A stretch of DNA of 64,000 nt from Hymenobacter translucens (GTDB taxonomy: Bacteria; Bacteroidota; Bacteroidia; Cytophagales; Hymenobacteraceae): contig NZ_JAJERB010000005.1 of the NCBI RefSeq assembly GCF_020685205.1, forward strand, positions 124,001 to 188,000. Reading direction: 5' to 3'. The notes beneath the pieces are model-generated. The model saw nothing but the letters and a program-made list of their open reading frames with translations, did no database searches and was not told where the DNA came from. Positions 663-16,533 of the stretch are shown here, piece by piece. Each line of letters opens with the position of its first letter. The first letter of the stretch is position 1. A program made the position numbers and the translations under genes.

Positions 663-1973
663 ATGGCTAAAAAAACCACTTCCCATAACTGGAGCCCCAC
701 CAACAGCACCCGGCACCATACCACCGACAAGCCCAAGGAAGAGCAGCCGGTGCGCGACCCGGAAACCGGCACCTACGTGACCACCCAGGGCTCGGAAACA
801 GCCGTGCTGGTAGCCGTGCCCGACAAGCGCCAGCCCGACAGCCAGACCCAGGAGTACCTTGACGAGCTGGCCTTTCTGGCCGAAACCGCCGGGGCCCAGG
901 TTACCCAGCGGTTTGTGCAGCGCCTCGACAAGCCCGACACCCGCACGTATGTGGGCGAAGGCAAGCTGGCCGAAATCAAGGCCTACGTGCGCCACTCCGG
1001 CTCCAGCATGGTCATTTTCGACGACGATCTGTCGCCGTCCCAGCTGCGCAACCTGGAAGCCGAGCTCGGGGTGAAAATCGTGGACCGCTCCCTGCTGATC
1101 ATTGACATCTTTGCCCGGCGCGCCAAGTCGGCTACGGCCCGCACCCAGGTGGAGCTGGCCCAGTACCAGTACCTACTGCCCCGCCTCACCGGCCTGTGGA
1201 CGCACTTGAGCCGGCAGCGTGGTGGTGGTGTCAGTCAGCGTGGTCCGGGGGAAACGGAAATCGAGACCGACCGCCGCGTCGTGCGGGACCGGATTGCCTT
1301 TCTGAAAGAAAAGCTCGACGACCTCGATAAGCAAAGCCTAACCCAGCGCAAGTCGCGGGGCGGGGTGGTGCGCGTGGCGCTGGTGGGCTACACCAACGTG
1401 GGCAAAAGCACCATCATGAACCTGCTGAGCCGCTCCGACGTGTTTGCCGAAAACAAGCTTTTCGCGACGGTCGACTCTACCGTCCGCAAGGTGGTGCTGG
1501 AAAACACGCCCTTCCTGCTGTCCGACACCGTTGGGTTTATCCGCAAGCTGCCCACCCGCCTGATTGAAAGCTTTAAGTCGACGCTCGACGAAATCCGGGA
1601 AGCTGACCTGCTCGTGCACGTGGTCGACATTTCCCACCCGGCGTTTGAGGAGCAGATCGAGGTGGTAAACGACACGTTGAAGGACATCAACGCCGCCGAC
1701 AAACCGATGCTACTGGTTTTCAACAAGATTGACCGCTACAACCAGGAAGCCACGCAACCCGGGCACGAGGGCATGAACGAGGAAGAAGGCGAGCAGCGCC
1801 CCACGCTGGAACAGCTGCAGGCTACGTACATGGCCAAGATGCACGACCCGGTTATCTTTATTTCGGCTCAGGAGCGCCAGAACATAGACGAACTGCGCGC
1901 TTTGCTCGTACGCCACGTTTCCGCGCTGCACCAGCAGCGCTATCCCAACCACACGGCTTATCCGACCGAGTAA
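663..1973 (+). CDS. hflX: GTPase HflX
   Basis: The 436-residue protein has the HflX architecture. The N-terminal HflX domain (about residues 40-190) ends in the signature RGPGETEIETDRR, followed by a helical linker. The G domain begins near residue 235 with P-loop GYTNVGKST, then DTVGF (G3) and NKID (G4). HflX binds the 50S ribosomal subunit and splits or rescues stalled ribosomes, especially under heat stress. The length is normal for the family. The first 45 residues are polar and poorly conserved, so a start further in is possible, but the chosen ATG is the first in frame. Confidence 0.95.
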   Translation: MAKKTTSHNWSPTNSTRHHTTDKPKEEQPVRDPETGTYVTTQGSETAVLVAVPDKRQPDSQTQEYLDELAFLAETAGAQVTQRFVQRLDKPDTRTYVGEGKLAEIKAYVRHSGSSMVIFDDDLSPSQLRNLEAELGVKIVDRSLLIIDIFARRAKSATARTQVELAQYQYLLPRLTGLWTHLSRQRGGGVSQRGPGETEIETDRRVVRDRIAFLKEKLDDLDKQSLTQRKSRGGVVRVALVGYTNVGKSTIMNLLSRSDVFAENKLFATVDSTVRKVVLENTPFLLSDTVGFIRKLPTRLIESFKSTLDEIREADLLVHVVDISHPAFEEQIEVVNDTLKDINAADKPMLLVFNKIDRYNQEATQPGHEGMNEEEGEQRPTLEQLQATYMAKMHDPVIFISAQERQNIDELRALLVRHVSALHQQRYPNHTAYPTE

Positions 1974-2296
1974 CTGTCCGCTGCCCAGGCGCTGGCGGCA
2001 ACTATGGCCAGTCAGCACCTGGGCAGGTGGCCTTTCCGAGGAAAACCATACCAATTTTACTATATAATAATTTCAACAATTATTGCATTGAGCTGGGCAA
2101 AACTGCAAAATGCCAAAATTTTTTACCCTGCCTTAAAATCCCGCTCTGCGGCCATTTAAATTGCATTTGTAACACTATTCATGTTCTAACATTGTGAATA
2201 TTTCAAACAAGTATTGATCTGAACATGATACTCGCAAAATAATTTTAAATAGATTACCGCCGCATTCCCACTCCATCACTTCCAAAATCACACTTC
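1974..2296. other. AT-rich intergenic region between hflX and the first M43 protease
   Basis: This spacer is much richer in A+T than its surroundings from about 2045 to 2260. It starts with an inverted repeat just after the hflX stop (reported separately) and must hold the promoter of the secreted protease at 2297. I found no exact TAnnTTTG box. No open reading frame or RNA gene is recognisable. Confidence 0.6.
1981..2026 (+). terminator. Possible terminator after hflX
   Basis: CTGCCCAGG (1981-1989) is perfectly complementary to CCTGGGCAG (2018-2026). The 28-nt loop is long and there is only a weak T run downstream, so this is a candidate rather than a typical intrinsic terminator. Confidence 0.4.
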
Positions 2297-3580
2297 ATGA
2301 AAAGAAACTTTTACGCCGCCGCCCTGGGCCTCCTGACCCTCGGCACCACCCTTACTACCCAGGCCCAGGATTTCCGCCAGTCGGCCGGCAACCCCTCTTC
2401 TTCCCGTGGACGCGGCTGCGTTGCCATGGAGGTGCTGGCTGAGCAGCTGGCTGCCGACCCGACCATGGCCCAGCGCATGAGCGCCATCGAAAACCAGACG
2501 GCCCGCTACCAGTCGCTGCTGCCCTCGCAGCGCTCTACTGCGGTTACCGTTACGATTCCCGTAGTTGTGCACGTAGTGTACAATACCTCTACTCAGAACG
2601 TACCCTTGTCGCAGATTACCGCGCAGATGGACGTCCTGAACCAGGACTTCGCCAAAACCAACCCCGACGCCAGCCTGATCCCGGCGGCTTTCGCCGGCTC
2701 CGCAGCTTCTACCAACGTGCGCTTCGTACTGGCCCAGCGCGACCCCAATGGTCTGGCTACCACCGGCATCATCCGGAAGCAAACCAAAGTAACGTCGTGG
2801 AGCTCCAACGACGCCGTGAAAAACTCCAAGCGCGGTGGCTCGGACGCTTGGCCCCGCGACAAGTACCTCAACATCTGGGTGTGCAACCTGGGCGGCGGCC
2901 TGCTGGGCTATGCTCAGTTCCCCGGCGGTCAGGCTTCCACTGACGGTGTGGTTGTCCTGTACTCTTCCCTGCCCGGCGGTACCGCTGCTCCCTACAACAA
3001 AGGCCGGACGGCTACGCACGAGGTTGGCCACTGGCTGAACCTGCGCCACATCTGGGGTGATGCCTCCTGCGGCAACGACTACGTATCCGACACGCCCACC
3101 CAGCAGACGTCCAACTACGGCTGCCCGTCGTTCCCGAAGGTCACCTGCTCGAACGGCCCGAACGGCGACATGTTCATGAACTACATGGACTACACCGACG
3201 ATGCCTGCATGTACATGTTCTCCAACGGGCAGTCGACCCGCATGGATGCCTTGTTCGCCACCGGTGGTGCCCGCGTTGGTCTGGTGACCTCGCTCGGTGG
3301 TACTGCTCCCCGCGCTACCGCTCCCCTGCTCGCCACGACGGCCGCTTCGCTTTATCCGAACCCCGCTTCCGACGTGCTGAACATCAACGTTGGCGATGCT
3401 AAGCGCACTGCCGATGCTGCTTACTCGGTAAAAGTTTACGATCTGCGCGGCTTTGAAATGAAGCAGGCTCAGTACAACGGCAACGGCCAGGTACGCGTCG
3501 ACATGCTGCCCAAGGGTCTGTACTACGTGACCATCACGGATGGTGTGAACACCCAGCACCAGCGTTTCCAGAAAGACTAG
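2297..3580 (+). CDS. Secreted M43 (cytophagalysin-type) zinc metalloprotease with T9SS sorting domain
   Basis: The 427-residue protein starts with a Sec signal peptide ending near TTQAQ. Its catalytic domain carries the metzincin zinc motif [11 protein letters not shown], beginning at His241. A met-turn-like [14 protein letters not shown] segment lies further on, as in M43 pappalysin/cytophagalysin proteases. Residues from about 350 form a type A C-terminal sorting domain (LYPNPASD... KGLYYVTI), which directs export by the type IX secretion system and attachment to or release from the cell surface. It probably degrades extracellular protein. The next gene is a close paralogue that shares long identical DNA blocks. 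Two terminators follow. Confidence 0.9.
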   Translation: MKRNFYAAALGLLTLGTTLTTQAQDFRQSAGNPSSSRGRGCVAMEVLAEQLAADPTMAQRMSAIENQTARYQSLLPSQRSTAVTVTIPVVVHVVYNTSTQNVPLSQITAQMDVLNQDFAKTNPDASLIPAAFAGSAASTNVRFVLAQRDPNGLATTGIIRKQTKVTSWSSNDAVKNSKRGGSDAWPRDKYLNIWVCNLGGGLLGYAQFPGGQASTDGVVVLYSSLPGGTAAPYNKGRTATHEVGHWLNLRHIWGDASCGNDYVSDTPTQQTSNYGCPSFPKVTCSNGPNGDMFMNYMDYTDDACMYMFSNGQSTRMDALFATGGARVGLVTSLGGTAPRATAPLLATTAASLYPNPASDVLNINVGDAKRTADAAYSVKVYDLRGFEMKQAQYNGNGQVRVDMLPKGLYYVTITDGVNTQHQRFQKD

Positions 3581-3588
3581 TTTCCCGG

Positions 3589-3630
3589 GCACCGGACGGA
3601 GTTGCAGCTCTGCCCGGTGCTTTCTTTTTC
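3589..3630 (+). terminator. Intrinsic terminator
   Basis: GCACCGG (3589-3595) pairs with CCGGTGC (3614-3620), with a smaller GAG/CTC hairpin in the loop, and is followed by the T-rich run TTTCTTTTTC. It ends the first protease transcript. Confidence 0.75.
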
Positions 3631-3645
3631 ACTCACTTCGGTTGC

Positions 3646-3676
3646 GAAAAGCCCGCTTGCTAACAGCGGGCTTTTC
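3646..3676. terminator. Second, tandem intrinsic terminator
   Basis: GAAAAGCCCGC (3646-3656) and GCGGGCTTTTC (3666-3676) form a perfect 11-bp stem with a 9-nt loop. A-rich and T-rich ends make it able to act on either strand. It lies only 16 bp after the first terminator, so the two proteases are probably transcribed separately. Confidence 0.75.
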
Positions 3677-3846
3677 AAATGCCTTTCCCGCCGCACAGGC
3701 CCGTTCGTGGCCGCTGCTGCCTTTTACCCGCATCTTGCTGACTTTCAGACGTCCCGCCTACTTTCAGCTGGCGGACCTGGCTGTCGTTTGCCTTTTTTTC
3801 GCTTACCTGCCCTCTTCCACCACCAAACCAATCTTCTTTCAGTAGC

Positions 3847-5601
3847 ATGAAAAAAACGATTTACGCATTAGCGCTGGCCTGCCTCGGCCTGGGCTCCGTT
3901 TCCCAGGGCGTTGCCCAGAGCCTGCAGGCCCCGAACCGGTCGGCGCGGCAGTGTGCCACCATGAATTCCCTGGCAGCCCAGCTGGCGGCTGATCCGGCCA
4001 TGGCGCAGCGTATGAACAACATTGAAGCGCAGACCCGCCAGTTCGCGGCCAGCCCGGCCGGCGCGGATCAGCAGCGCAGCACGGCCGTGTCGATCACCAT
4101 TCCGGTAGTCGTACACGTTCTGTACAACACCACCGCACAGAACGTCTCGGATTCGCAGATTGCCTCCCAGATTGCCGTTCTCAACGAAGATTTCCAGAAG
4201 CTTAACAGCGACGTATCGAAAACTCCTTCGGCGTTTGCCGGCTCGGTTGCTGATGTGGGCGTAGCCTTTGTACTGGCCAAGCGCGACCCGAACGGCAATG
4301 CCACCACCGGTATTCAGCGCAAGCAGGTAACCCAGACCTCCTGGGGCACCGACGACAAGATGAAGAGTTCCTCCACCGGCGGCCTGAACGCCTGGCCGGC
4401 CGGCAGCTACCTCAACCTGTGGGTGTGCAACCTGAGCGGCGGCGTACTGGGCTACGCGCAGTTTCCCGGCGGCGCGGCGGCTACCGATGGCGTCGTAATT
4501 CTGACTTCGGCTTTCGGCCGGTACGGCTCGGCGGTGGCTCCCTTCAACCTGGGCCGGACGGCTACACACGAGGTTGGCCACTGGCTGAACCTGCGCCACA
4601 TCTGGGGTGATGCCTCCTGCGGCACTGACTACGTATCCGACACGCCCACCCAGCAGACCTCTAACACGGGCTGCCCGTCGTTCCCCCGCCGCACCTGCGG
4701 CAACACGACCAACGGCGACATGTTCATGAACTACATGGACTACACCGACGATGCCTGCATGTACATGTTCTCCAACGGGCAGTCGACCCGCATGAACGCG
4801 CTGTTTGCTTCGGGCGGTGCCCGGGCTTCGCTGAAAACCTCCCTGGGTGGCACCGCCCCCAGCGGCACGACCACGCCCACCTACTGCGCTTCGAAAGGCT
4901 CCAACGTATCGTACGAGTGGGTCGACTACATCAAAATCGGTACACTGACCCGTACCTCGGGCGCTGATGGCGGCTACTACAACGGCACGGCGCTGTCAGC
5001 TCCTTCGCTGGCCGCCGGCGCATCGCAGCCGGTGAGCGTAAGTGCCGGCTTCTCCGGCTCGGCGTACACCGAATACTTCAAGCTCTACATCGACTACAAC
5101 AAGAACGGCGTATTTACCGATGCCGGCGAGCTGGTGTACAGCACCAGCAGCAGCAGCTCAGGTACGCTGTCAGGTTCGTTTACGGTGCCGACTACGGCTA
5201 AATCGGGTACCACCCGGGCCCGCCTGGTAATGAGCGACAACTCGGGCACGACGAGCTGCAACTCCTACACCTACGGCGAAACCGAGGACTACACCGTCAA
5301 CATCACCGGGGGCACTGCCATTGCCGCCGGCGGCACGTCTACCAGCTCCTCCTTCCGCACTTCCAGCGCCGACTACTCGGTGTATCCTAACCCCGCTTCC
5401 GAGGTACTAAACGTGGCAGTTCCGGTTGACGTGGACATCACCACGCTGACGGTGAAAGTGTACGACATCCGCGGTGCCGAAATGAAGTCGGTGCGCTACG
5501 AGAGCGGTCAGCTCAACGTAGCAGGCCTGGCCAAGGGCATCTACACGGTTGCCATCAACGACGGGCAGCAGGTGAAGCACCAGCGCTTCGTGAAGGAGTA
5601 G
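3847..5601 (+). CDS. Secreted M43 metalloprotease with GEVED domain and T9SS sorting domain
   Basis: This 584-residue paralogue of the upstream protease has a signal peptide ending near GVAQ and an M43 catalytic domain with [11 protein letters not shown] starting, as in its neighbour, at His241. About 150 extra residues (roughly 340-490) then form a GEVED-type beta domain, recognisable from [10 protein letters not shown] and [13 protein letters not shown]-terminal sorting domain follows from about residue 508 ([11 protein letters not shown] ... KGIYTVAI). GEVED modules are common in secreted Bacteroidota proteins and are thought to assist adhesion or folding. The catalytic region is nearly identical in DNA to the preceding gene, which suggests tandem duplication with later exchange. 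Confidence 0.9.
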
Positions 5602-5624
5602 TCGCTACGACCTCACCCCCTTTG

Positions 5625-5663
5625 CAATGCCCCGCCGGACTCCCGGCGGGGCATTGTTTGTTT
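5625..5663 (+). terminator. Strong intrinsic terminator
   Basis: CAATGCCCCGCCGG (5625-5638) and CCGGCGGGGCATTG (5643-5656) form a perfect 14-bp stem with a 4-nt loop, followed by TTTGTTT. Confidence 0.9.
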
Positions 5664-5760
5664 ACGGCAACCCGCAGCGGGCCACGCAGGACGCAGCCGT
5701 TCAGAACTTTTTGCAAGGCCAACAGTAAACGCTAGAGCCCAACCCCGTTTTTACCGCCGT

Positions 5761-6249
5761 ATGAAAGTCCTGTACCTGATGCGCCACGCCAAGTCGAGCT
5801 GGAGCTTCGATGACCTTACCGACAAGGAGCGCCCCCTCAACAACCGCGGCCGCGAGGACGCCCCCGTGATGGGGCAGGCCCTGGCCAAGCGCAACACCCA
5901 CCTTGATCTGATTGTGGCCTCGCCGGCGGTGCGCACGCTCAGCACGGCTGCCCTGGTAGCCCAGGAGTTGCACTATCCGCACGAACAGATCCGGGTAGAC
6001 GAGCGGATCTACGAAGCCGACGTGGCGGACCTGCTCACCGTCGTCCGGGAGCTGCCCGATCAGGCCTCATCGGTGCTGCTGGTAGGGCACAACAACACCA
6101 TTACGGACTTTGCCAACGTGCTGTCCACAAACCAGATTGAGGAGATGCCAACGGCCGGCATCGTCTGCCTGCACTTCAACTGTGCCCACTGGGCCGAGGT
6201 CGACCGCGCCAATGCGGAGTTTTACTTTTACGACCACCCCCGGCGCTAA
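5761..6249 (+). CDS. sixA: SixA-type histidine phosphatase
   Basis: The 162-residue cytosolic protein belongs to the histidine phosphatase (RHG) superfamily. It has the phospho-acceptor motif LMRHAKSSW (His9), the second arginine in the VASPAVRT segment, and the second catalytic histidine in LLVGHNNT. The RHAK form of the motif and the short length fit SixA, which removes phosphate from phosphohistidine proteins. The gene lies 27 bp before ppk1 on the same strand, so both are probably cotranscribed; a link to phosphate or polyphosphate signalling is inferred only from this. Confidence 0.88.
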   Translation: MKVLYLMRHAKSSWSFDDLTDKERPLNNRGREDAPVMGQALAKRNTHLDLIVASPAVRTLSTAALVAQELHYPHEQIRVDERIYEADVADLLTVVRELPDQASSVLLVGHNNTITDFANVLSTNQIEEMPTAGIVCLHFNCAHWAEVDRANAEFYFYDHPRR

Positions 6250-6276: not shown

Positions 6277-8409
6277 ATGCAAACACCTACCAAGCCCCAA
6301 CCCCAGCTTCTGAACCGGGAGCTCAGCTGGCTGGCTTTCAACCGCCGCGTGCTGCAGGAAGCCCAGAACCCGGAAGTGCCCCTGCTGGAGCGCATCAAGT
6401 TCCTGGCTATCTTTTCCTCCAACCTCGACGAATACTTCAAGGTGCGCGTGGCCACGCTGCGCCGTCTCGTCAAGCTCAAGAAGAAAACCAAGGCCAAGCT
6501 CGGCGAAGACCCGGCGGAGCAGCTGAAAAAGCTGCTGGAGGAAGTAGGCCGGCAGCAGCAGGAATTCGGCGAAACCTTCCGCGACAAGGTACTGCCGGAG
6601 CTGCACCGCCAGCACATCCACCTCGTTTCCGGCCCCGACCTGACCGGGGAGCAGCAGCAGTGGGTGCAGACGTACTTTCGTGAGAAGGTGCGCGACCTGC
6701 TTTCCCCCATCATCCTCGACGACAACCTGCACCACCTGTTCCTGAAAGACCAGACGGTGTATCTGGCGTTCTCACTGTCGGAATTGGTGAAAGGCAAAAA
6801 GTCGGACCCCGAGCAGCGGGTGCTGGTCATGGAAGTGCCCACCAAACGGCACGGCGGCCGGTTTGTGGTGCTGCCCACCGTGGGAAAAGAGCGGTACGTG
6901 ATGTTTCTGGATGACGTGATTCGCTGCGGGGCAGCCGAGCTGTTTCCCAATTACCGGCAGGTGGAGGCCCATGCCCTCAAAATCTCGCGCGACGCCGAGC
7001 TGGACATTCAGGAGGAAGTATCGGGCAACCTGATGCTCAAGATCAAGAGCAGCCTGCAAAAGCGGGCAACGGGCTACCCCGCCCGCCTGCTCTACGACCC
7101 GGCCATGCCCCAGGACTCGCTGCGCCTGGTCATGAAGAAAACCGGCATCGGGCAGGAAGAGCTGGTGGAAGGCAGCCGCTACCACAACTTCCGCGACTTT
7201 TTCGGCTTTCCCAACTTTAATCAAGCCGAGCTGAGCTACCCCGACCAGCCGGCCCTGCCCCACCCCACGCTGCCCAAGGCGGGCGGGAAGCTGCTGGCGG
7301 CCATTGCCACCCGCGACCATCTGCTGCACCTGCCCTACCAGTCGTTCGACTACGTGACGCGCTTTCTGACCGAAGCGGCGCAGGACCCGCAGGTGACGGC
7401 CATCAACATCACGCTGTACCGGGTAGCCGCAAAAAGTGAAGTAGCCAAGGCCCTGGTGAAAGCCGCCAAGAACGGCAAGCACGTGACGGTAGTAGTCGAG
7501 CTGAAGGCCCGCTTCGACGAGGAATCGAACATGTACTGGGCCGAGAAGCTGCAGAAGGCCGGGGCGCACGTCATTTTCGGTATGCCCGAGCTGAAGGTGC
7601 ACAGCAAGCTGGCCCTGGTGACGCGCACCGAGGACGGGCACAACAAGCTCTACGCCTACCTGAGCACCGGCAACTTCAACGAAGTTACAAGCCACATCTA
7701 CGCCGACCACGGCGTGTTCACCTCCGACCCGCGCCTGACCTCCGAGGTAGCCGAAGTGTTCCGCTACTTTCTGGACCACCAGCCCAAATCGGGCTTCAAA
7801 CACCTGTTGGTGGCCCCGTTCGAGCTGCGCGACAAGCTCAACGCCCTCATCGACCACGAAACCAAGCTGGCCAAGAAGGGCCAGGACGCCTACATCATTC
7901 TCAAGCTGAATGCCCTGCAGGACGAGCGGATGATTCGCAAGCTCTACGACGCCAGCCAGGCCGGGGTCCGCATCGAGCTGCTGATCCGGGGCATCTCCTG
8001 CGTGATTCCCCAGCAGCCCGGGCAGGGCGTCAACATCCAGCAGCGCGGCCTCGTGGACCGTTACCTGGAGCACGCCCGGGTGTACGTATTCGGCAACGGA
8101 GGCGAGGAGAAAGTGTACGTAGCTTCGTCCGACTGGATGAACCGCAACCTCGACCGGCGGGTGGAGGTGGCTTTCCCCATCCTGAACCCCGAGCTGCGCG
8201 CCGAAGTCCGCCACCTGCTCGATCTGCAGCGCCAGGACAATACCAAGTCCCGCGACTTCGACAACCACCTAATCGGTCCTGAAAGCCCCGATGCACCCCG
8301 CATCCGGGCCCAGTTTGCCACCTACGACTACCTGAAAAAGCTGGCCCGCCGGCGCCCCGCTTCTTCTAAAGTCGAACCCAAGCCAGGGCCGAGCGCCGGC
8401 GAAGCCTGA
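6277..8409 (+). CDS. ppk1: Polyphosphate kinase 1
   Basis: The 710-residue protein matches PPK1 over its full length. The N-terminal domain starts with LNRELSWLAFNRRVL, followed by a head domain and two phospholipase D-like catalytic domains. The autophosphorylated histidine is His442 in ELKVHSKLALV, and the second catalytic segment contains YVASSDWMNRNLDRRVEV. The enzyme reversibly polymerises ATP gamma-phosphate into polyphosphate. The C-terminal 30 residues are basic and proline-rich. It is cotranscribed with sixA and closed by a strong bidirectional terminator. Confidence 0.97.
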   Translation: MQTPTKPQPQLLNRELSWLAFNRRVLQEAQNPEVPLLERIKFLAIFSSNLDEYFKVRVATLRRLVKLKKKTKAKLGEDPAEQLKKLLEEVGRQQQEFGETFRDKVLPELHRQHIHLVSGPDLTGEQQQWVQTYFREKVRDLLSPIILDDNLHHLFLKDQTVYLAFSLSELVKGKKSDPEQRVLVMEVPTKRHGGRFVVLPTVGKERYVMFLDDVIRCGAAELFPNYRQVEAHALKISRDAELDIQEEVSGNLMLKIKSSLQKRATGYPARLLYDPAMPQDSLRLVMKKTGIGQEELVEGSRYHNFRDFFGFPNFNQAELSYPDQPALPHPTLPKAGGKLLAAIATRDHLLHLPYQSFDYVTRFLTEAAQDPQVTAINITLYRVAAKSEVAKALVKAAKNGKHVTVVVELKARFDEESNMYWAEKLQKAGAHVIFGMPELKVHSKLALVTRTEDGHNKLYAYLSTGNFNEVTSHIYADHGVFTSDPRLTSEVAEVFRYFLDHQPKSGFKHLLVAPFELRDKLNALIDHETKLAKKGQDAYIILKLNALQDERMIRKLYDASQAGVRIELLIRGISCVIPQQPGQGVNIQQRGLVDRYLEHARVYVFGNGGEEKVYVASSDWMNRNLDRRVEVAFPILNPELRAEVRHLLDLQRQDNTKSRDFDNHLIGPESPDAPRIRAQFATYDYLKKLARRRPASSKVEPKPGPSAGEA

Positions 8410-9792: not shown

Positions 9793-12700
9793 CTAGAACA
9801 GGAAGTCGAAGCCGACAAAGAAAAGCTTCTCCTCGCCTACCGAGTACGTGGCATTAACCACGGCCTGCTTGAGAATATCAACCCATACACCGCCGCCAAA
9901 GCCGGTGTGGAAGGCACTGATGCCGGTGCGCGAATCGTTGATAGAGTACACGCGGCCGGCATCGGCCAGGCCCATCACCCCGAACTTGCCGGGAAACAGG
10001 TAAGCATTGAAGTCAAACAGCTGAATGCGGGCCTCGGCGTTGGCATACACCGAGCTACGGCCGGCAAAGCGGGTCCGGCGGTAGCCCCGCAGGTTGGTGG
10101 TACCACCCAGGGTATTGGCCTGGTAGAAGCGGTAGTCGCCCAGATTGCGGCTGGCCCCGATCCGGCCGGCCCAGGTAAGCTGGAACGGGAAGTTGGGGCT
10201 CAGGTAGAACCGCACTTCCGAGGCCAGGCGGCCATACACCAGTCCTTCGCCGTTAAGCTGGCGGTTGTACTCGGCGCTGTTGTACCAGCGGATGCCGATG
10301 CGGGGATTCTTGGGCGAGCTGGCCGCGTCGATGTTGAAGTAGGCCCGGGCCCCGGCGTAGCGGTTGAGCTGGAAGTCGGAAGAGCGGATGCCGAACCGCT
10401 GGTTTTCGCCCGACGGCCCCAGGCTGTCGAGCAGAATCTGTCCCAGTTGGTTGCGCTCCACCCGGAACTGGTCGTACTGCGGACCAATACCGACTTTAAG
10501 GAAGCTGAAGACGTCTTTTTCCAGCACCGGCGACACGTACAGCCGCGAGAACCGCACCCGGTAGCTGTTGTTCACGGTACGGGCCCGTACCCGCTCCCCG
10601 TCCTGCAGGGTGTAGTTCTGGGTGTTGTTGCCGATGCCGAAGAAGTTATACAGCAGCTGCGGGCCGTAGAACTGGGCATCGACTCTCACGTCATACTTGC
10701 CAATTACGTCGGTGAAGGCGCCGGTGTAGCGCACGTTGTACGCCTCGCGGGCCGGGGCGTAGTTGGCCACCAGGGTTTGCTGGGTCGCAAACGGCGCCTT
10801 GCGGAAGCCGTAGGTGCGGTACGTGACGCCGCCGCCCAGGAACAGGCCGTCGTCGATGTTGTAGCCGAAGTACACGGCCGGGCCGAAGTAGTTGAGCTGA
10901 TAGTCACTGCGGTTGGTGCGGGTGTGCACGTCGTAGCGGCTCACGTCGATGCCGGGCTGCAGGCGCAGGCGGGCCTCCGAGCCGGTCCGGATGACGTTGC
11001 CCGTGTCGGCATCGTAGACCTGGGTGTAGTGCCGGAAGCCGGCCACCCGGGAGTTGTCGGTGATGGAGTCGCGGTCGGTGCCGCCGATGATGCGCACGCG
11101 GGTGCCGCTTTTCACGTTGCCGCGCACCTCGTACACGTCGTTGCCGGAGAAGCCGTACAGCCGCACTTCCTTGGTCACTTTGTTGTCGAAGGTGCGGTCG
11201 TAGAGCATCTTGGTGTACTTGCCCTCCTTGTTGATTTTCTGCACCGTCACGCGGGTCTTGTCGTCGGGCAGGCGCTCCACCACGAACTTCTCCTGCTTTT
11301 CGCTGCCTTTTACCTCCGTGATGCGCGACACCACTTCGTAGTAGTCGGCAGCCAGCTCGGGCAGCAGATCACGGCGGCTCTTGAGCTTGGCAATGATTTC
11401 GGGACCGTGTAGGTCGAAGATCTGCTTGGGCAGCTGCTCGCGGAACGACTTTTCAATTACCTCGTCGGTCAGGTTCTTCTTCAGGTCTTCGGCCTGGCTG
11501 ACCCACTGCTCTTTCGTAACGGAGGCCAGAAACACCCGGTCGTTGGCCAGGGCCGTTAGGTTGAGGCCTTTCCAGTCGGCGTAGTCCTTGCCGAAGTTCT
11601 GGAAGTTGCGGATGGCCCACTTGCGGCTGGCCAGGTACGGCAGCAGACCGTCGCCCTTAAAGAAAGCCACGTCGCGGTCTTCCGGCACGGCCGTAAAGGT
11701 GCGGTCCCCCTCCTTGTCCTTCTGCTCGGCCCAGCGCCACTGGTCCTCGTGCCGGTCCCAGTCGCCGATCCACATATCAAACAGGCGGGTGCGGGCAAAC
11801 GCCTTTTCCTTGACGCGGTTGTCGTTGTCCTCGCGCAGGCGCTCCATTACCCTGTCGGTTCCGACCAGGTTTTTGGCGTTGCCCAGCGACGCCACGTTGC
11901 TTTGGTCGTCTTTGGCATCCTCCTCAATCATGGCTGGCGTATCCGAGAACCGCTCGAAGTACTGACCCAGCAGCGGGTCCTTGGGAATGTAGATGGGCCG
12001 GGGGTTGGTGTGCAGGATGCCCGCGGCCGTCGCCAGGGGCGCAATCGGGAAGGCCGAGAACGGGTGCTGGGCCGAAATCTGGTCCTGCAGGATGTCCTTG
12101 GCCGCTCCTTCGCGCAGGGCTTCGGGCAGCACGGCGGCAGGGTCCTTGTTGAGGCCGCGCAGGGTGTAGTTGCGGCCTTCCTCGTTGCGGACTTTCAGCG
12201 AAGCGGTTTGCTTGCCGCCGCCAATCTTATAGGGCGTCAGGCCACCTTTCTCGGTGGCCATGTCGAGCACCGGCAGCTGCACCGGCGTGGCCCACTCGGC
12301 CCGGTAATGGTCGCCGAACAGGAAGCGGTGAAACTTACCCCGCTGCTCGTAGCGCGGGTTGATGGCCACCGTCACGGTGCTGTCGCGGAAGTTCGGGCGC
12401 TTCACCTGCTGGGTTTCTACCAGCGCGGCCACCTGCACGGTCTGCTTGGCGTACATCGGCCCGCGGTACACGAGGCGGCCGGTTTCGCCCTTGTCATTGG
12501 GAATCCAGAACTCGGTCCAGACCTCGCCGTTGTCGTAGTAGTTGACCCGGCTAAAGCCTTTTTCCTTGTCTGAGAAGATGGCGTCACCGCTGCTGCCCGG
12601 CCGCACGTGCTGGGTTTTGCAGCCCGAGCCGCTCACGATGTGGTGCAGGTTGCCCACCTTGAAGTACTGCAGGTTGTGCTCGTGCCCGGCGGCGTACACC

Positions 12701-13680
12701 ACGTTGGGATACTTCTCGAAAATCTCCATCAGCCCCTTCTTATAGCCCTGATAAAGCGGGTGGGGAATGTCCTGGCTGATGCCGCCGTACTTGCGGGCCA
12801 GCGGATACACCGAGCCGATGATGGGCAAGGGCAGGAACGCATACTTAAAGACAATCGACAGCGGAAACAGGTGGTCGGCCAGGGTGAAGTAGCCGCCGTG
12901 AATGCCATCGGAGAAAAGCGGGTGGTGCGCCACCACCATGATGTTCTTGTCCTTGTTGCGCTGAATGACGTCTTCGAGCTGGGTGAAGAAGTCGGTTTCG
13001 TTGGCTACGCCGCAGCCACTGTTGGCGCCGTAGGGCCGCTCGTTGGTTTGCAGAAACCACTGGGAGTTGATGGCAATCAACACCAGGTCGTCCTGCAGGC
13101 GTACCTCAAAAGGGCCGGGGCAGGCGTCGCGGGGAATAAAAAAGTCGCCGGTGTAGGCAAAGGCAGCCGAGTCCTTGGTCAGGAAGTCTTCCACGAAGCG
13201 CTGCTGGCGGTTGACCTGCTCCACCGAGCCGCTGAGGCCCTGCTTCCAGTCGTGGTTGCCGGGAATCATGTACTTCTCCCCGGCGTAGTCGCGCAGCACG
13301 TTCAGCTGGGCCACGATACGCTCCTCCGATATCTTGCGGTCGTAGGCGCCCTCCTCGGGCATGCCGTAGTTGTAGATATTGTCGCCGAGGTAGATGGTGG
13401 TGCTTTTCGCCCCGGCCGCCACAATCTGGCGGCGCATGAAGTTAAGCGACGGTTCCCCACCCAAATCCTGGGTTACGGGCTTGCCCACGTCCCCGATCAG
13501 AAACACGGTGTAGCGCAGGTGGGAGCTGTCGGGCGGCGTCTTGGTTTCCCAGTTTTCGCCGCCGTGACGGTAATTGGGCCGCGTAGGGTGAGCCGTTTGG
13601 GTTTTCTGGGCCACGGCGCTGGGCAGCACCAAGCCCGTCGACCCGGCCAGCAGACAGAACAGCAGGAAAAATCTTCTCAT
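9793..13680 (-). CDS. Calcineurin-like phosphoesterase fused to an Omp85/BamA-type outer-membrane barrel
   Basis: The 1295-residue protein has a signal peptide, then a metallophosphoesterase domain (about residues 50-360) with the metal-binding blocks LIGDVGKP, YLGDNIYNYG, IPGNHDWKQG, VVAHHPLFSDG and AAGHEHNLQYF. From about residue 930 the sequence becomes beta-strand rich. It includes LRGYRRTRFAGRSSVYANAE and GLADAGRVY, typical of Omp85/D15 barrels, and ends in phenylalanine as outer-membrane barrels do. Between them lies a region with MWIGDWDRHEDQWRW and AVPEDRDVAF, which looks like the catalytic core of Fam20/HipA-like kinases (inference). It is probably an outer-membrane protein with a phosphatase module on one side; substrate unknown. 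Confidence 0.82.
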   Translation of the reverse strand: MRRFFLLFCLLAGSTGLVLPSAVAQKTQTAHPTRPNYRHGGENWETKTPPDSSHLRYTVFLIGDVGKPVTQDLGGEPSLNFMRRQIVAAGAKSTTIYLGDNIYNYGMPEEGAYDRKISEERIVAQLNVLRDYAGEKYMIPGNHDWKQGLSGSVEQVNRQQRFVEDFLTKDSAAFAYTGDFFIPRDACPGPFEVRLQDDLVLIAINSQWFLQTNERPYGANSGCGVANETDFFTQLEDVIQRNKDKNIMVVAHHPLFSDGIHGGYFTLADHLFPLSIVFKYAFLPLPIIGSVYPLARKYGGISQDIPHPLYQGYKKGLMEIFEKYPNVVYAAGHEHNLQYFKVGNLHHIVSGSGCKTQHVRPGSSGDAIFSDKEKGFSRVNYYDNGEVWTEFWIPNDKGETGRLVYRGPMYAKQTVQVAALVETQQVKRPNFRDSTVTVAINPRYEQRGKFHRFLFGDHYRAEWATPVQLPVLDMATEKGGLTPYKIGGGKQTASLKVRNEEGRNYTLRGLNKDPAAVLPEALREGAAKDILQDQISAQHPFSAFPIAPLATAAGILHTNPRPIYIPKDPLLGQYFERFSDTPAMIEEDAKDDQSNVASLGNAKNLVGTDRVMERLREDNDNRVKEKAFARTRLFDMWIGDWDRHEDQWRWAEQKDKEGDRTFTAVPEDRDVAFFKGDGLLPYLASRKWAIRNFQNFGKDYADWKGLNLTALANDRVFLASVTKEQWVSQAEDLKKNLTDEVIEKSFREQLPKQIFDLHGPEIIAKLKSRRDLLPELAADYYEVVSRITEVKGSEKQEKFVVERLPDDKTRVTVQKINKEGKYTKMLYDRTFDNKVTKEVRLYGFSGNDVYEVRGNVKSGTRVRIIGGTDRDSITDNSRVAGFRHYTQVYDADTGNVIRTGSEARLRLQPGIDVSRYDVHTRTNRSDYQLNYFGPAVYFGYNIDDGLFLGGGVTYRTYGFRKAPFATQQTLVANYAPAREAYNVRYTGAFTDVIGKYDVRVDAQFYGPQLLYNFFGIGNNTQNYTLQDGERVRARTVNNSYRVRFSRLYVSPVLEKDVFSFLKVGIGPQYDQFRVERNQLGQILLDSLGPSGENQRFGIRSSDFQLNRYAGARAYFNIDAASSPKNPRIGIRWYNSAEYNRQLNGEGLVYGRLASEVRFYLSPNFPFQLTWAGRIGASRNLGDYRFYQANTLGGTTNLRGYRRTRFAGRSSVYANAEARIQLFDFNAYLFPGKFGVMGLADAGRVYSINDSRTGISAFHTGFGGGVWVDILKQAVVNATYSVGEEKLFFVGFDFLF

Positions 13681-13940
13681 ACAGAAGGAGTAAACGATAG
13701 GTAAGCGGGAGTTGACGGGCGGGCCCGGACAGGATGTCCGGCAAACTGAGCCTTAAACCCGCTGGTAGTAGCATACGGCCTTTACGGGCCGGCGTTGAAC
13801 CGCAATGGCTGCCGTACGCAAAGCATTCAGGCACGGTTGGGCTTGCGCGCCAAAAACCCCGGCCCCCGATTCGCGTTCTAGGAAGTAAGGAGGAGGTCCG
13901 GCGTCAGCCCTGGCCCGGCTCCGCTTTCTTATTCCTGCTC

Positions 13941-15173
13941 ATGGAACAATCCGAACCCATCAAAGAGAAGAAGCCGAAGTCTGAACTAGTCAAGCAGGCC
14001 AAAGCCTACGTCACCCAGCTTTTCGAGGAGAAGCTGCCCGGTCAGCTGGTGTACCATACCATCAAGCACACCAGCACTACGGTGAAAGAAGCCCAGGCGC
14101 TGGGCAAGGCGGCCGAGCTGTCGGATGAAGACCTGGAGGCGCTGATACTGGCCGCCTGGTTTCACGACTCCGGCTACCTCGACAAATACGACGGGCACGA
14201 GTACCGCAGCATGGAAATAGCGCAGCAGTGGCTAACCCAGCAGCAGTACCCCGCCGACCGCCTGCAGGTGGTTCTGGACACCATCCGGGCTACTCACCGC
14301 AACGAAGAGCGCAAAACCGAGTTGCAGCAGCTGCTGGTGGATGCCGACCTGAGCACCGTGGGCCGGGAAGAGTTTTTCTCGAACGGGGAACTGCTGCGGG
14401 CCGAGTGGGAAACCGTGCTGGGCCGGACGTACACGACCCCTGAATGGGCCGAGAATCAGCTGAATTTTCTGCTGTCAACGAAGTTTTACACCGACGTCGC
14501 CAAGGACCGGTACAAGGACCAGCTGAAAGACAACATCAAAGCCCAGCGCAAGGCGCTGAAAAAGGCCGAAAAGAAGGCCGAGAAGCGGGAGGAAGAGCAG
14601 GTTGAGAACTTTGCCGAAGGCAAGCGGGGCGTCGAAACGGTGTTTCGCACCACCTACAGCAACCACATCACCCTGTCGCAGATGGCCGACAACAAGGCCA
14701 ACATGATGATCAGCCTGAACGCCGTCATCCTGTCGATCCTGATTACCTACCTGGGCGCCAAAACCTCGGCCATCGGGCCGGCCTTTACCCGCAACCCCAT
14801 CCTGGCCGTGCCGATGGGCGTGCTGGTCGCCACGGCCCTGGGCTCAGTGGTTTCGGCCATCCTGTCGGCCCAGCCCGACGTGACCAGCTTTAAGTGGCTG
14901 AGCCGCAGCCCCCAGATTGCCACCAACCGGCGCGTAAACCTGCTGTTCTTCGGCAACTTTACCAAGATCAGCCTCGACAACTTTCAGCTGGGCATGCACG
15001 AGCTGATGCGCAACAAGGACCTGCTTTACACCAACATGATTACCGACATCTACTACCTCGGGGAAGTGCTGTCGCGCAAGTACCGCCTGCTACGCATCAG
15101 CTACACCATCTTTATGCTCGGCATCATCCTGACCGCTATTTCCTTTGGCATCGTGCTGCTGTACAAAGTCTGA
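13941..15173 (+). CDS. HD-domain protein with a Pycsar-type transmembrane effector region (HD-PycTM)
   Basis: The 410-residue protein starts with an HD phosphohydrolase domain: HTIKHT (residues 39-44), AAWFHDSGYLD (HD at 75-76) and VDADLSTVG (about 134-140). A Lys/Glu-rich coiled coil follows (about 200-225). The C-terminal part matches the membrane effector family of Pycsar antiphage systems: SNHITLSQMADNKANMMISL, then three hydrophobic segments (about 255-272, 287-309, 385-407). In Pycsar, cyclic UMP or CMP made by a neighbouring cyclase triggers such membrane proteins. Here no canonical PycC is adjacent, and the HD domain might hydrolyse a nucleotide signal. I chose the ATG at 13941 because the open frame upstream of it has no recognisable protein. 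Confidence 0.82.
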   Translation: MEQSEPIKEKKPKSELVKQAKAYVTQLFEEKLPGQLVYHTIKHTSTTVKEAQALGKAAELSDEDLEALILAAWFHDSGYLDKYDGHEYRSMEIAQQWLTQQQYPADRLQVVLDTIRATHRNEERKTELQQLLVDADLSTVGREEFFSNGELLRAEWETVLGRTYTTPEWAENQLNFLLSTKFYTDVAKDRYKDQLKDNIKAQRKALKKAEKKAEKREEEQVENFAEGKRGVETVFRTTYSNHITLSQMADNKANMMISLNAVILSILITYLGAKTSAIGPAFTRNPILAVPMGVLVATALGSVVSAILSAQPDVTSFKWLSRSPQIATNRRVNLLFFGNFTKISLDNFQLGMHELMRNKDLLYTNMITDIYYLGEVLSRKYRLLRISYTIFMLGIILTAISFGIVLLYKV

Positions 15174-15182
15174 CGACCTTTT

Positions 15183-15314
15183 ATAATTAGGAATTGTTTC
15201 TGCTGAAGCTCCATGGGCGGGTTTTGTTCAGCAAGGCGCTAGACCAGACGTGCTCACCGGAAAATGCCTGTGAGGCAGCCTAAGCAAAAATTCTTAATTA
15301 CTAATTTTTAATTG
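15183..15314. repeat. Heptad-period spacer element (AATTA family)
   Basis: The right side reads AAAATTC TTAATTA CTAATTT TTAATTG from 15287 to 15314, a strict 7-base period. The left side (15183-15196) has ATAATTA GGAATTG. The arms are AT-rich in a GC-rich spacer. The right arm supplies the stop codon (15301-15303) and the last codons of the DUF2652 gene. Confidence 0.6.
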
Positions 15315-16533
15315 AAAGCTGTTCGCACAGCGCGGCTAGCTGGCGGAGCGAGATGCCCAGGAAGCGGTGCAGGCGGCGCAGCTGCCCAAACCGAATCAGC
15401 GGGCGGCGGCTGGCAATGTGGCCGTAGCGAAACTCCAGCGTAATCAGGCAGGCGCGGGTGCTGACGGGCTCAATAAAGAAGAACAGCAGGGAGTTGGGAA
15501 ACAGGCGGAAGTGCGAAATCTTCTCCACGTACTCGGTCCGCTCCTCGTCCTCGAAGCGCTGCACGGTCTGAAAGTCAATCTGGCCCCGGTTGAGGTCCAC
15601 TTTGTAGCTGGTGCCCAGGCGGTCGGCTTTGGTCAGGTCGTACTGCACCTTGCTGACGCCCACCATCCAGCGGGGGCGCAGGCGAAAGTTGGCAAGTACC
15701 CGCAGGGCGTAGGCTACGGGCACCTGCACCGCCCGGCGCACCACCAGGGCATTGCCGCCCGTGGAGCCGGGCTCCCCCAGCGCGTCGCGGTCGGCCAGCA
15801 GCAGGCGCAGGGGCGTGAGGTGGGCGTAGCGGTAGCACACGTCGCCGAGGTGGTCGTACTGGCACTTGCCCCGCAGCAGGCGGGTCCAGGAGAAGGCCCG
15901 GCTCAGGTCGGCGCCGGTCTGGGTTTGCAGGTAGTCATCCGACAGCAGCACGTACTCGCTGCCGGTGATGTTGTTTTTCAGCAGGCGGTGCACCACAATC
16001 ACCTCCCGGCCCATCAGCTTGGTAAACTGCCGGATCTGGGCCACGCTGATCTGCCCGTAGTGCACGATAATCTTGATGGTGAGGTCGTGGGCCAGCAACG
16101 CCGTGCTCAGCGCCGAGTCGGTATCGCGCTGCAGCAGGCGCAGGTAGTTCTGAAAGTCGAGGAAGATGCGCCGGCACTGGCTGACGAGCTCGGCCAGGGG
16201 CGGGGGCGGCCCCAGCCGGTAAAACAGGATGGCGTCGCCCTGAATCTCGCTAACCTCCATGCCCAGCACGTTCGACTCAATCAGAATCTCCAGCAGGTCG
16301 GCAATCAGGAACGGCGCCTGGGGGCTGCCCGAGTCCTGAATAAAGCGGGTGAAGCCACTGATGTCCGGAATGAAAAGCAAAGCCGGCTGCAGGCCATCGG
16401 GCCCGGCGCCGATGCCGGCGGGCTGGCGGCGGCCGGCAGCCCGCCGGGCCGCGCGCATATCATCCAGAAGACCCATAGAGGAAAGTAGTGCGGCAGGTAA
16501 GCAGAATGCCGGCAAGCTATACGGACGGAGCAA
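15301..16533 (-). CDS. DUF2652 protein: class III cyclase-fold N-terminus with SRPBCC-like C-terminus
   Basis: The 410-residue protein has an N-terminal half resembling class III nucleotidyl cyclases. FIPDISGFTRF (Asp57) and SEIQGDAILFYR (Asp100) supply the two metal-binding aspartates. The later motif that is usually GxxVNxAxR reads GREVIVVHR (175-183), so the transition-state asparagine is Ile179 while Arg183 remains. The C-terminal half (about 250-400) looks like an SRPBCC/START-type pocket (inference). Activity is therefore uncertain. Met20, at 16476, is an alternative start. It is convergent with the HD-PycTM gene and separated from it by a repeat. Confidence 0.75.
   Translation of the reverse strand: MLRPYSLPAFCLPAALLSSMGLLDDMRAARRAAGRRQPAGIGAGPDGLQPALLFIPDISGFTRFIQDSGSPQAPFLIADLLEILIESNVLGMEVSEIQGDAILFYRLGPPPPLAELVSQCRRIFLDFQNYLRLLQRDTDSALSTALLAHDLTIKIIVHYGQISVAQIRQFTKLMGREVIVVHRLLKNNITGSEYVLLSDDYLQTQTGADLSRAFSWTRLLRGKCQYDHLGDVCYRYAHLTPLRLLLADRDALGEPGSTGGNALVVRRAVQVPVAYALRVLANFRLRPRWMVGVSKVQYDLTKADRLGTSYKVDLNRGQIDFQTVQRFEDEERTEYVEKISHFRLFPNSLLFFFIEPVSTRACLITLEFRYGHIASRRPLIRFGQLRRLHRFLGISLRQLAALCEQLSIKN

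Follow-up and report, generated by a model that had tools for sequence, protein, structure and literature searches.

Comparison with described systems

Omp85 proteins usually carry POTRA domains at the position that a predicted kinase-fold domain and a linker occupy in the protein analysed here, a 1295-amino-acid product encoded in a 64,000-nucleotide stretch (the window, in which coordinates are counted) of Hymenobacter translucens contig NZ_JAJERB010000005.1. The middle domain of this protein is supported by structural modelling as a protein-kinase-like (PKL) two-lobed fold, lying between a predicted phosphatase and an Omp85 beta-barrel. In 2014, Heinz and Lithgow described an Omp85 class named 'Metallo', which combines a PF00149 domain, termed a metalloprotease domain, with an Omp85 barrel (PMC4104836). 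That paper does not list 'Metallo' among the subfamilies for which POTRA domains are predicted, and its text contains no words beginning with 'kinase' or 'phospho'. The PF00149 domain and the Omp85 barrel are shared by the window's protein, which by this domain definition is in all likelihood a 'Metallo' member, whereas its kinase-fold middle domain is not part of the available description. The phosphatase-Omp85 fusion was already catalogued in 2014, and the kinase-fold domain within it was previously unannotated. No description of a kinase domain in Omp85 proteins was found among the matches listed for the open-licence PMC literature, a collection with most subscription papers and all preprints outside it.

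The catalytic loop of the Fam20 secretory kinases carries DRH, as does the middle domain (hereafter the module). Like these kinases, the module has a kinase fold, as modelled, and would, if the window's protein is periplasmic, lie outside the cytoplasm; it differs by the lack of a profile match and by a structural match far weaker than those to type II phosphatidylinositol 4-kinases (PI4KII) or CotH. PI4KII gave the best structural match among those listed, but at 9% identity and with no profile match, and the window's protein is bacterial and bears an outer-membrane barrel. The purple and tartrate-resistant acid phosphatases (TRAP) share ligand motifs with the N-terminal domain, whose profile matches them at E 1e-14; in the window's protein, however, the predicted phosphatase is one domain of three. 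CotH is a Ser/Thr kinase of the spore coat (PMC7821199), and the module shares its fold as modelled, with two active-site motifs in register. It differs from CotH in having no Pfam CotH match, in carrying a DRHxDQ loop in place of the CotH WD...NN, and in its location between phosphatase and barrel.

Gene and domain organization

The gene is read from the minus strand, 13680 to 9793, and is open throughout, whereas the plus-strand reading of 9793-13680 in that frame is interrupted by stops. The domain order in this one polypeptide, all on the minus strand, is a signal-peptide-like N-terminus (residues 1-25, 13606..13680, read by eye), a calcineurin-like phosphoesterase of the purple/tartrate-resistant acid phosphatase type (residues ~50-425, 12406..13533, from the Pfam Metallophos and TRAP profile matches), the PKL core (residues 468-786, 11323..12279, from the AlphaFold2 model and fold matches), a beta-rich linker domain (residues ~787-925, 10906..11322, from the secondary structure in two models), and a 16-strand Omp85 beta-barrel (residues 928-1295, 9796..10899, from the model and from fold and profile matches). 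The first-pass annotation had placed a phosphoesterase and an Omp85-type C-terminus in one 1295-residue protein, and this was borne out by Pfam Metallophos, Omp85_fam and the barrel model.

Predicted fold of the middle domain

Residues 432-906 were modelled by AlphaFold2 from 50 sequences, with a pLDDT of 91.5 and a pTM of 0.91. The elements of the model follow one another as a strand, the glycine loop, a strand, a strand with R508, a helix with D533, and further strands and helices; the DWDRH loop comes next, followed by a beta hairpin, by PxDRD and by a half made of helices. We read this order as that of a kinase. The first-pass annotation had proposed a kinase-like block and had named structure prediction beforehand as the test that could refute it by a non-kinase fold; the prediction returned a kinase fold.

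In the VIA-align search, 49 of the 50 matches listed were kinases or kinase-fold proteins by title, with Z-scores from 15.3 down to 11.0, the sole exception being Legionella LepB (Z 11.3). According to the tool's own note, models with no clear match typically score Z 7-8. The top match among those listed was PI4KIIbeta (9hhm; Z 15.3, 4.6 A over 259 residues), with Bacillus cereus CotH (5jd9; Z 14.8, 4.0 A over 253 residues) and CtkA (Z 14.3) close to it, and mTOR, VPS34, PI3K, ATM, SMG1 and HipA followed at about 11-12 (HipA 11.7; we take the 'MDT protein' titles to be HipA). These matches span mainly the model up to its residue 356, which is residue 787 of the protein. The best Foldseek match was PI4KIIalpha (E 3.7e-5, probability 1.00), and HipA (E 6.9e-4), Rio2 (8.5e-4) and a Golgi casein kinase (4kqb; 7.4e-3, probability 0.87) were also found; six matches reached E 0.001 or better. 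The Golgi casein kinase, presumably of the Fam20 type, is absent from the 50 VIA-align matches listed.

The first-pass annotation had pointed to Fam20 and HipA; a kinase fold was indeed predicted, but the nearest relatives in structure are PI4KII and CotH, and in sequence profile CotH, rather than Fam20C. The region first delimited, residues 540-760, lies within the kinase-fold core, which is wider (about 468-786).

Sequence comparisons of the middle domain

No believable match to the module was obtained in Pfam or the PDB, either with the single sequence or with a set of 21 sequences. The whole protein matched only Metallophos in Pfam at E <=1 (Metallophos_2 was below its cut-off), and none of the 21 members matched CotH (PF08757) or HipA_C (PF07804), even with E values as high as 10 admitted. 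Ten Pfam families that each matched one of the 21 members (best Dna2, E 0.0016) were dismissed as unconvincing. In the PDB, neither Fam20 chains nor PI4KII gave a profile match, and a single chain, the telomerase-associated 3u4z, came within the E limit of 10.

The module profile was then aligned by hhalign with 30 Bacteroidota CotH domains, using unrelated and reversed profiles as decoys. With all sequences included, the active sites aligned in register and the P value for CotH was 0.0009, compared with 0.26-0.74 for the decoys and with 0.021 for CotH against HipA, which are known relatives. The GDWD of the module falls on the CotH WD, and PxDRDxAF on the CotH IPxDxD. HipA was rejected as a profile relative of the module, its P value of 0.12 being barely better than those of the decoys.

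Active-site residues and their conservation

Three motifs mark the predicted active site. The glycine-rich loop GGGKQTAS (residues 487-494, minus strand, 12199..12222) lies between two predicted strands and was assigned by conservation and modelled secondary structure. The putative catalytic-loop motif IGDWDRHEDQWRW (residues 638-650, minus strand, 11731..11769) was assigned by conservation and by the CotH profile alignment, WD on WD, and the putative metal-binding motif AVPEDRDVAFFKGDG (residues 664-678, minus strand, 11647..11691) by conservation and by alignment with IPxDxD. D642 is presumed to be the catalytic Asp, and D668/D670 the metal Asp. The second motif had been proposed early as the holder of the metal Asp; D668/D670 are conserved and in register with CotH, and the metal role stays presumptive. 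Q647 occupies the position of the usual catalytic-loop Asn, and an Arg (R508) seems to take the place of the usual beta3 Lys. Bacillus subtilis CotH is inactive when D228 or D251 is changed (PMC7821199, citing Nguyen 2016), and we infer from the alignment that D642 and D668/D670 are the equivalents of these two residues.

In an alignment of the window's protein with 49 homologues, P666, D668 and D670 were invariant in all 50 sequences. The DWDRHxDQ columns were invariant as well, but this is uninformative because the homologues were fetched with that very motif as seed. G487 and G488 were invariant in two alignments, and Q491 was invariant in one and nearly so in the 50-sequence one.

Conservation was therefore also surveyed in 100 open reading frame (ORF) rows found with no motif seed, hand-picked from a genome survey and hence non-random. 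They comprise 54 proteins with the phosphatase-module-barrel architecture, 30 with module and barrel, and 16 (14 distinct) with the module alone. D642-R643-H644 and D668/D670 were kept in 51/54 three-domain proteins, the window's included, in 17/30 module-barrel proteins and in 11/14 single modules, so that the conservation check suggested in the first-pass annotation came out in favour of the DRH and DRD residues; by conservation in homologues, both motifs are beyond chance. The three exceptions among the 54 form one Hymenobacter paralogue line (L002, L202, L203), in which D642 is replaced by G and phosphatase ligands are also lost. The nine phosphatase positions were complete in 47 of the 54, and four of the seven incomplete proteins (L170, L199, L205, L206) have intact kinase residues. 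A full phosphatase set with lost kinase residues was found in none of the 54, and the reverse in four. That three-domain proteins maintain the active site speaks against a role in them that is structural only, and the losses in other forms indicate that a structural role exists in relatives.

A subgroup of module-barrel proteins (L174, L175, L180, L183) keeps D640, D642 and R643 and has RHY or RQY instead of DRD; it is likely a pseudokinase branch, judging from these residues. Two module-barrel open frames stand in tandem at L185; the active site is degenerate in the frame at 958-3621 and intact in that at 3629-6196.

Phosphatase domain and Omp85 barrel

Pfam Metallophos matched residues 58-270 (E 7.6e-6). 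The putative ligands, assigned by motif, are D64, D100, N142, H143, H252, H333 and H335, together with Y103 in GDNIY. A profile of 16 sequences (the window's and 15 homologues) matched the TRAP chains 1ute (E 1e-14) and 2bq8 (1.7e-14), human purple acid phosphatase 1war (1.8e-14) and glideosome-associated protein 50 (2.2e-11), and the metal-ligand motifs D, GDNxY, GNHD, HHP and GHxH are present in the alignment to 1ute. The N-terminal domain is predicted to be a phosphohydrolase that is closest in sequence to TRAP and purple acid phosphatases.

NCBIfam Omp85_fam matched residues 1124-1295 with E 1.9e-20, but its 73.7 bits are below the model cut-off of 200. The model of residues 786-1295, built from 16 sequences, had a pLDDT of 79.6 and a pTM of 0.65, and 16 long strands were counted manually. 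The fold search of this model returned the barrels of Escherichia coli TamA (Z 26.2) and BamA (Z 25.8), and the barrel profile matched Fusobacterium BamA 9ccg at 2.6e-9. NLRGYR (residues 1196-1201), which we take to be the RGF/RGY motif of the Omp85 kind, has its R and G invariant in the 16 sequences. No POTRA domains were detected by Pfam, and the matches of the fold searches hardly reached into the linker from 787 to about 925.

Distribution and paralogues

The module was detected in 112 of 296 sampled Bacteroidota genomes (E <= 0.001). The genome of the window also encodes another full-length protein of this kind, a paralogue with 34% identity, as well as the module by itself in two open frames (546 and 560 codons), and a separate open frame of 456 codons matching only the phosphatase part. 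A lipobox-like N-terminus (VAGC) is present in one of these two single-module products, and the other has a Cys nearby that falls outside the simple lipobox pattern used.

In all three Hymenobacter genomes examined (G000, G072, G166), a DWSRR single module divergently adjoins a DWDRH partner. Such a pair lies in the window's own genome at L116 (4662-6296, minus strand, and 6423-8036, plus strand), and others at L176 and L221, some with lipobox-like N-termini; from their motifs, they are possible kinase/pseudokinase pairs. Also at L116 is a cluster of an APP1-type phosphatidate phosphatase (10623-11885), a phosphatase-only paralogue with a hydrophobic N-terminus (14011-15291), and a YegS/DAGK-type lipid kinase (15233-16159), a content that hints at lipid phosphate chemistry. 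Genes for a CotH domain and for a module-barrel protein are only a few kb apart in two genomes (G019, G070; loci L217 and L218).

Gene neighbourhood

The divergent neighbour of the three-domain gene encodes an HD domain with a PycTM membrane domain (13734..15173, plus strand, by Pfam; this is the ORF as listed, and translation may in fact begin downstream within it). Polyphosphate kinase 1 (PPK1; 6277..8409, plus strand; Pfam and TIGR03705) and a SixA-type histidine phosphatase (5761..6249, plus strand; Pfam His_Phos_1, with TIGR00249 sixA below cut-off) are encoded on the other side.

These neighbours were counted at 80 loci from named collections, and the counts are lower bounds because many loci are metagenome-assembled contigs with short flanks. 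HD-PycTM was near at least 47/61 three-domain loci (18/18 in Hymenobacter, 29/43 in others) and 3/19 loci with no phosphatase. The corresponding numbers were at least 21/61 (13/18 and 8/43) and 2/19 for PPK1, and at least 15/61 (12/18 and 3/43) and 0/19 for SixA. Clustering of all ORFs at the 62 non-Hymenobacter loci placed a beta-propeller near 26/43 three-domain loci versus 2/19 phosphatase-less loci, and a nucleotide cyclase near 15/43 versus 0/19. Pfam assigned one representative beta-propeller to SdiA-regulated (E 8e-10) and one representative cyclase to Guanylate_cyc (E 2.5e-16). By our own arithmetic, a random gene falls within a 20-kb stretch of a 5-Mb genome with a chance of about 0.4%, a figure that is no significance test because the loci are related. 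This genomic link suggests that the three-domain protein serves the phosphate or polyphosphate economy, or nucleotide signalling.

A non-Hymenobacter island (L086:3301-8770) holds a cyclase, PPK1, PycTM, HD and an SdiA-regulated beta-propeller, followed by the three-domain gene. In the window, HD-PycTM is adjoined by a DUF2652 protein (15301-16533, minus strand) with a FIPDISGFTRF stretch, which we take to resemble class III cyclases; this protein may replace the cyclase of other lineages. A Pycsar defence reading of HD-PycTM was set aside by inference, as this neighbour accompanies PPK1 and one architecture across families. A reading as a type IX secretion system effector, after a Riemerella metallophosphoesterase that is listed in PMC10202324 and referenced in PMC10281475, was likewise dropped, since it could not be linked to the three-domain family.

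Proposed function and alternatives

On balance, we favour an outer-membrane phosphotransfer enzyme that would face the periplasm and combine a phosphatase with an atypical kinase in one protein. After export, the protein would be anchored in the outer membrane by its Omp85 barrel, and both soluble domains would most likely lie in the periplasm, as the N-terminal domains of Omp85 proteins generally do. The middle domain, placed where POTRA domains usually are, would be an atypical kinase of the CotH/PI4KII/HipA/Fam20 branch. Its glycine-rich loop and R508/K512 may hold the phosphate donor, D668/D670 with Q647 may bind Mg2+, and D642 may act as the catalytic base. The kinase domain would move phosphate onto an envelope protein or lipid, and the phosphatase domain would take phosphate off the same or related targets, or off a nucleotide product.

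Several observations weigh against this proposal. The best VIA-align matches superpose at 4-4.6 A, TM-scores from Foldseek are low, the top match reaching 0.34 of the query, and the HHalign probability for CotH is 20%, or 22.5% with a larger alignment, so that the CotH profile link backs the structural evidence but cannot carry the case by itself. With R508 for Lys and Q647 for Asn, the site is unorthodox. The key residues are lost in 13/30 module-barrel rows, of which four match only in part, in 3/14 single modules and in the L002/L202/L203 line, which implies that some relatives do without catalysis. Finally, no ATP pool is known in the periplasm, which makes the phosphate donor a real problem. 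A further-reaching version, that an active kinase and phosphatase reversibly phosphorylate proteins or lipids of the envelope, in a space that is believed to be ATP-free, with a donor linked to polyphosphate through PPK1 or with ATP from outside, and that such systems are widespread in Bacteroidota, including the kinase/pseudokinase pairs, is tentative and in our judgement somewhat improbable.

The middle domain might instead be a non-catalytic sensor or scaffold in the POTRA position, leaving the phosphatase as the sole enzyme. The losses in the module-barrel rows and in the L002 line fit this, as does the resemblance of the divergent DWDRH/DWSRR pairs to kinase/pseudokinase pairs, but three-domain proteins keep the kinase residues more often than the phosphatase set (51 versus 47 of 54), the opposite of what a scaffold predicts, and we consider it unlikely. 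SelO is an example of a kinase fold with another transfer chemistry, and the module may similarly have kept the fold for AMPylation, glutamylation or other transfer. The unorthodox residues R508 and Q647 would suit such a switch, which is known in the kinase fold from SidJ (PMC6858067); it appears still less probable, as both the DRH loop and DxD align with their counterparts in CotH, a Ser/Thr kinase (PMC7821199). Display of the phosphatase-kinase part on the cell surface by the barrel, with substrates outside the cell, a placement initially suggested for PlpD, a patatin-Omp85 protein, has that precedent and the 'Metallo' discussion behind it (PMC4104836) and is very unlikely given the usual periplasmic side of Omp85 N-terminal domains.

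If the proposed phosphotransfer enzyme is real, the CotH/Fam20/PI4KII branch of kinase folds would be found in the outer membrane throughout much of its range in one phylum of bacteria, and a TRAP-like phosphatase and a kinase, of the sort that animals use separately on secreted proteins, would be united in one polypeptide. The middle domain was left blank by the Pfam copy searched and is carried by 112 of the 296 sampled Bacteroidota genomes. Extracytoplasmic phosphorylation in Gram-negative bacteria and its donor would thereby become testable through point mutants in culturable carriers of the gene such as Hymenobacter.

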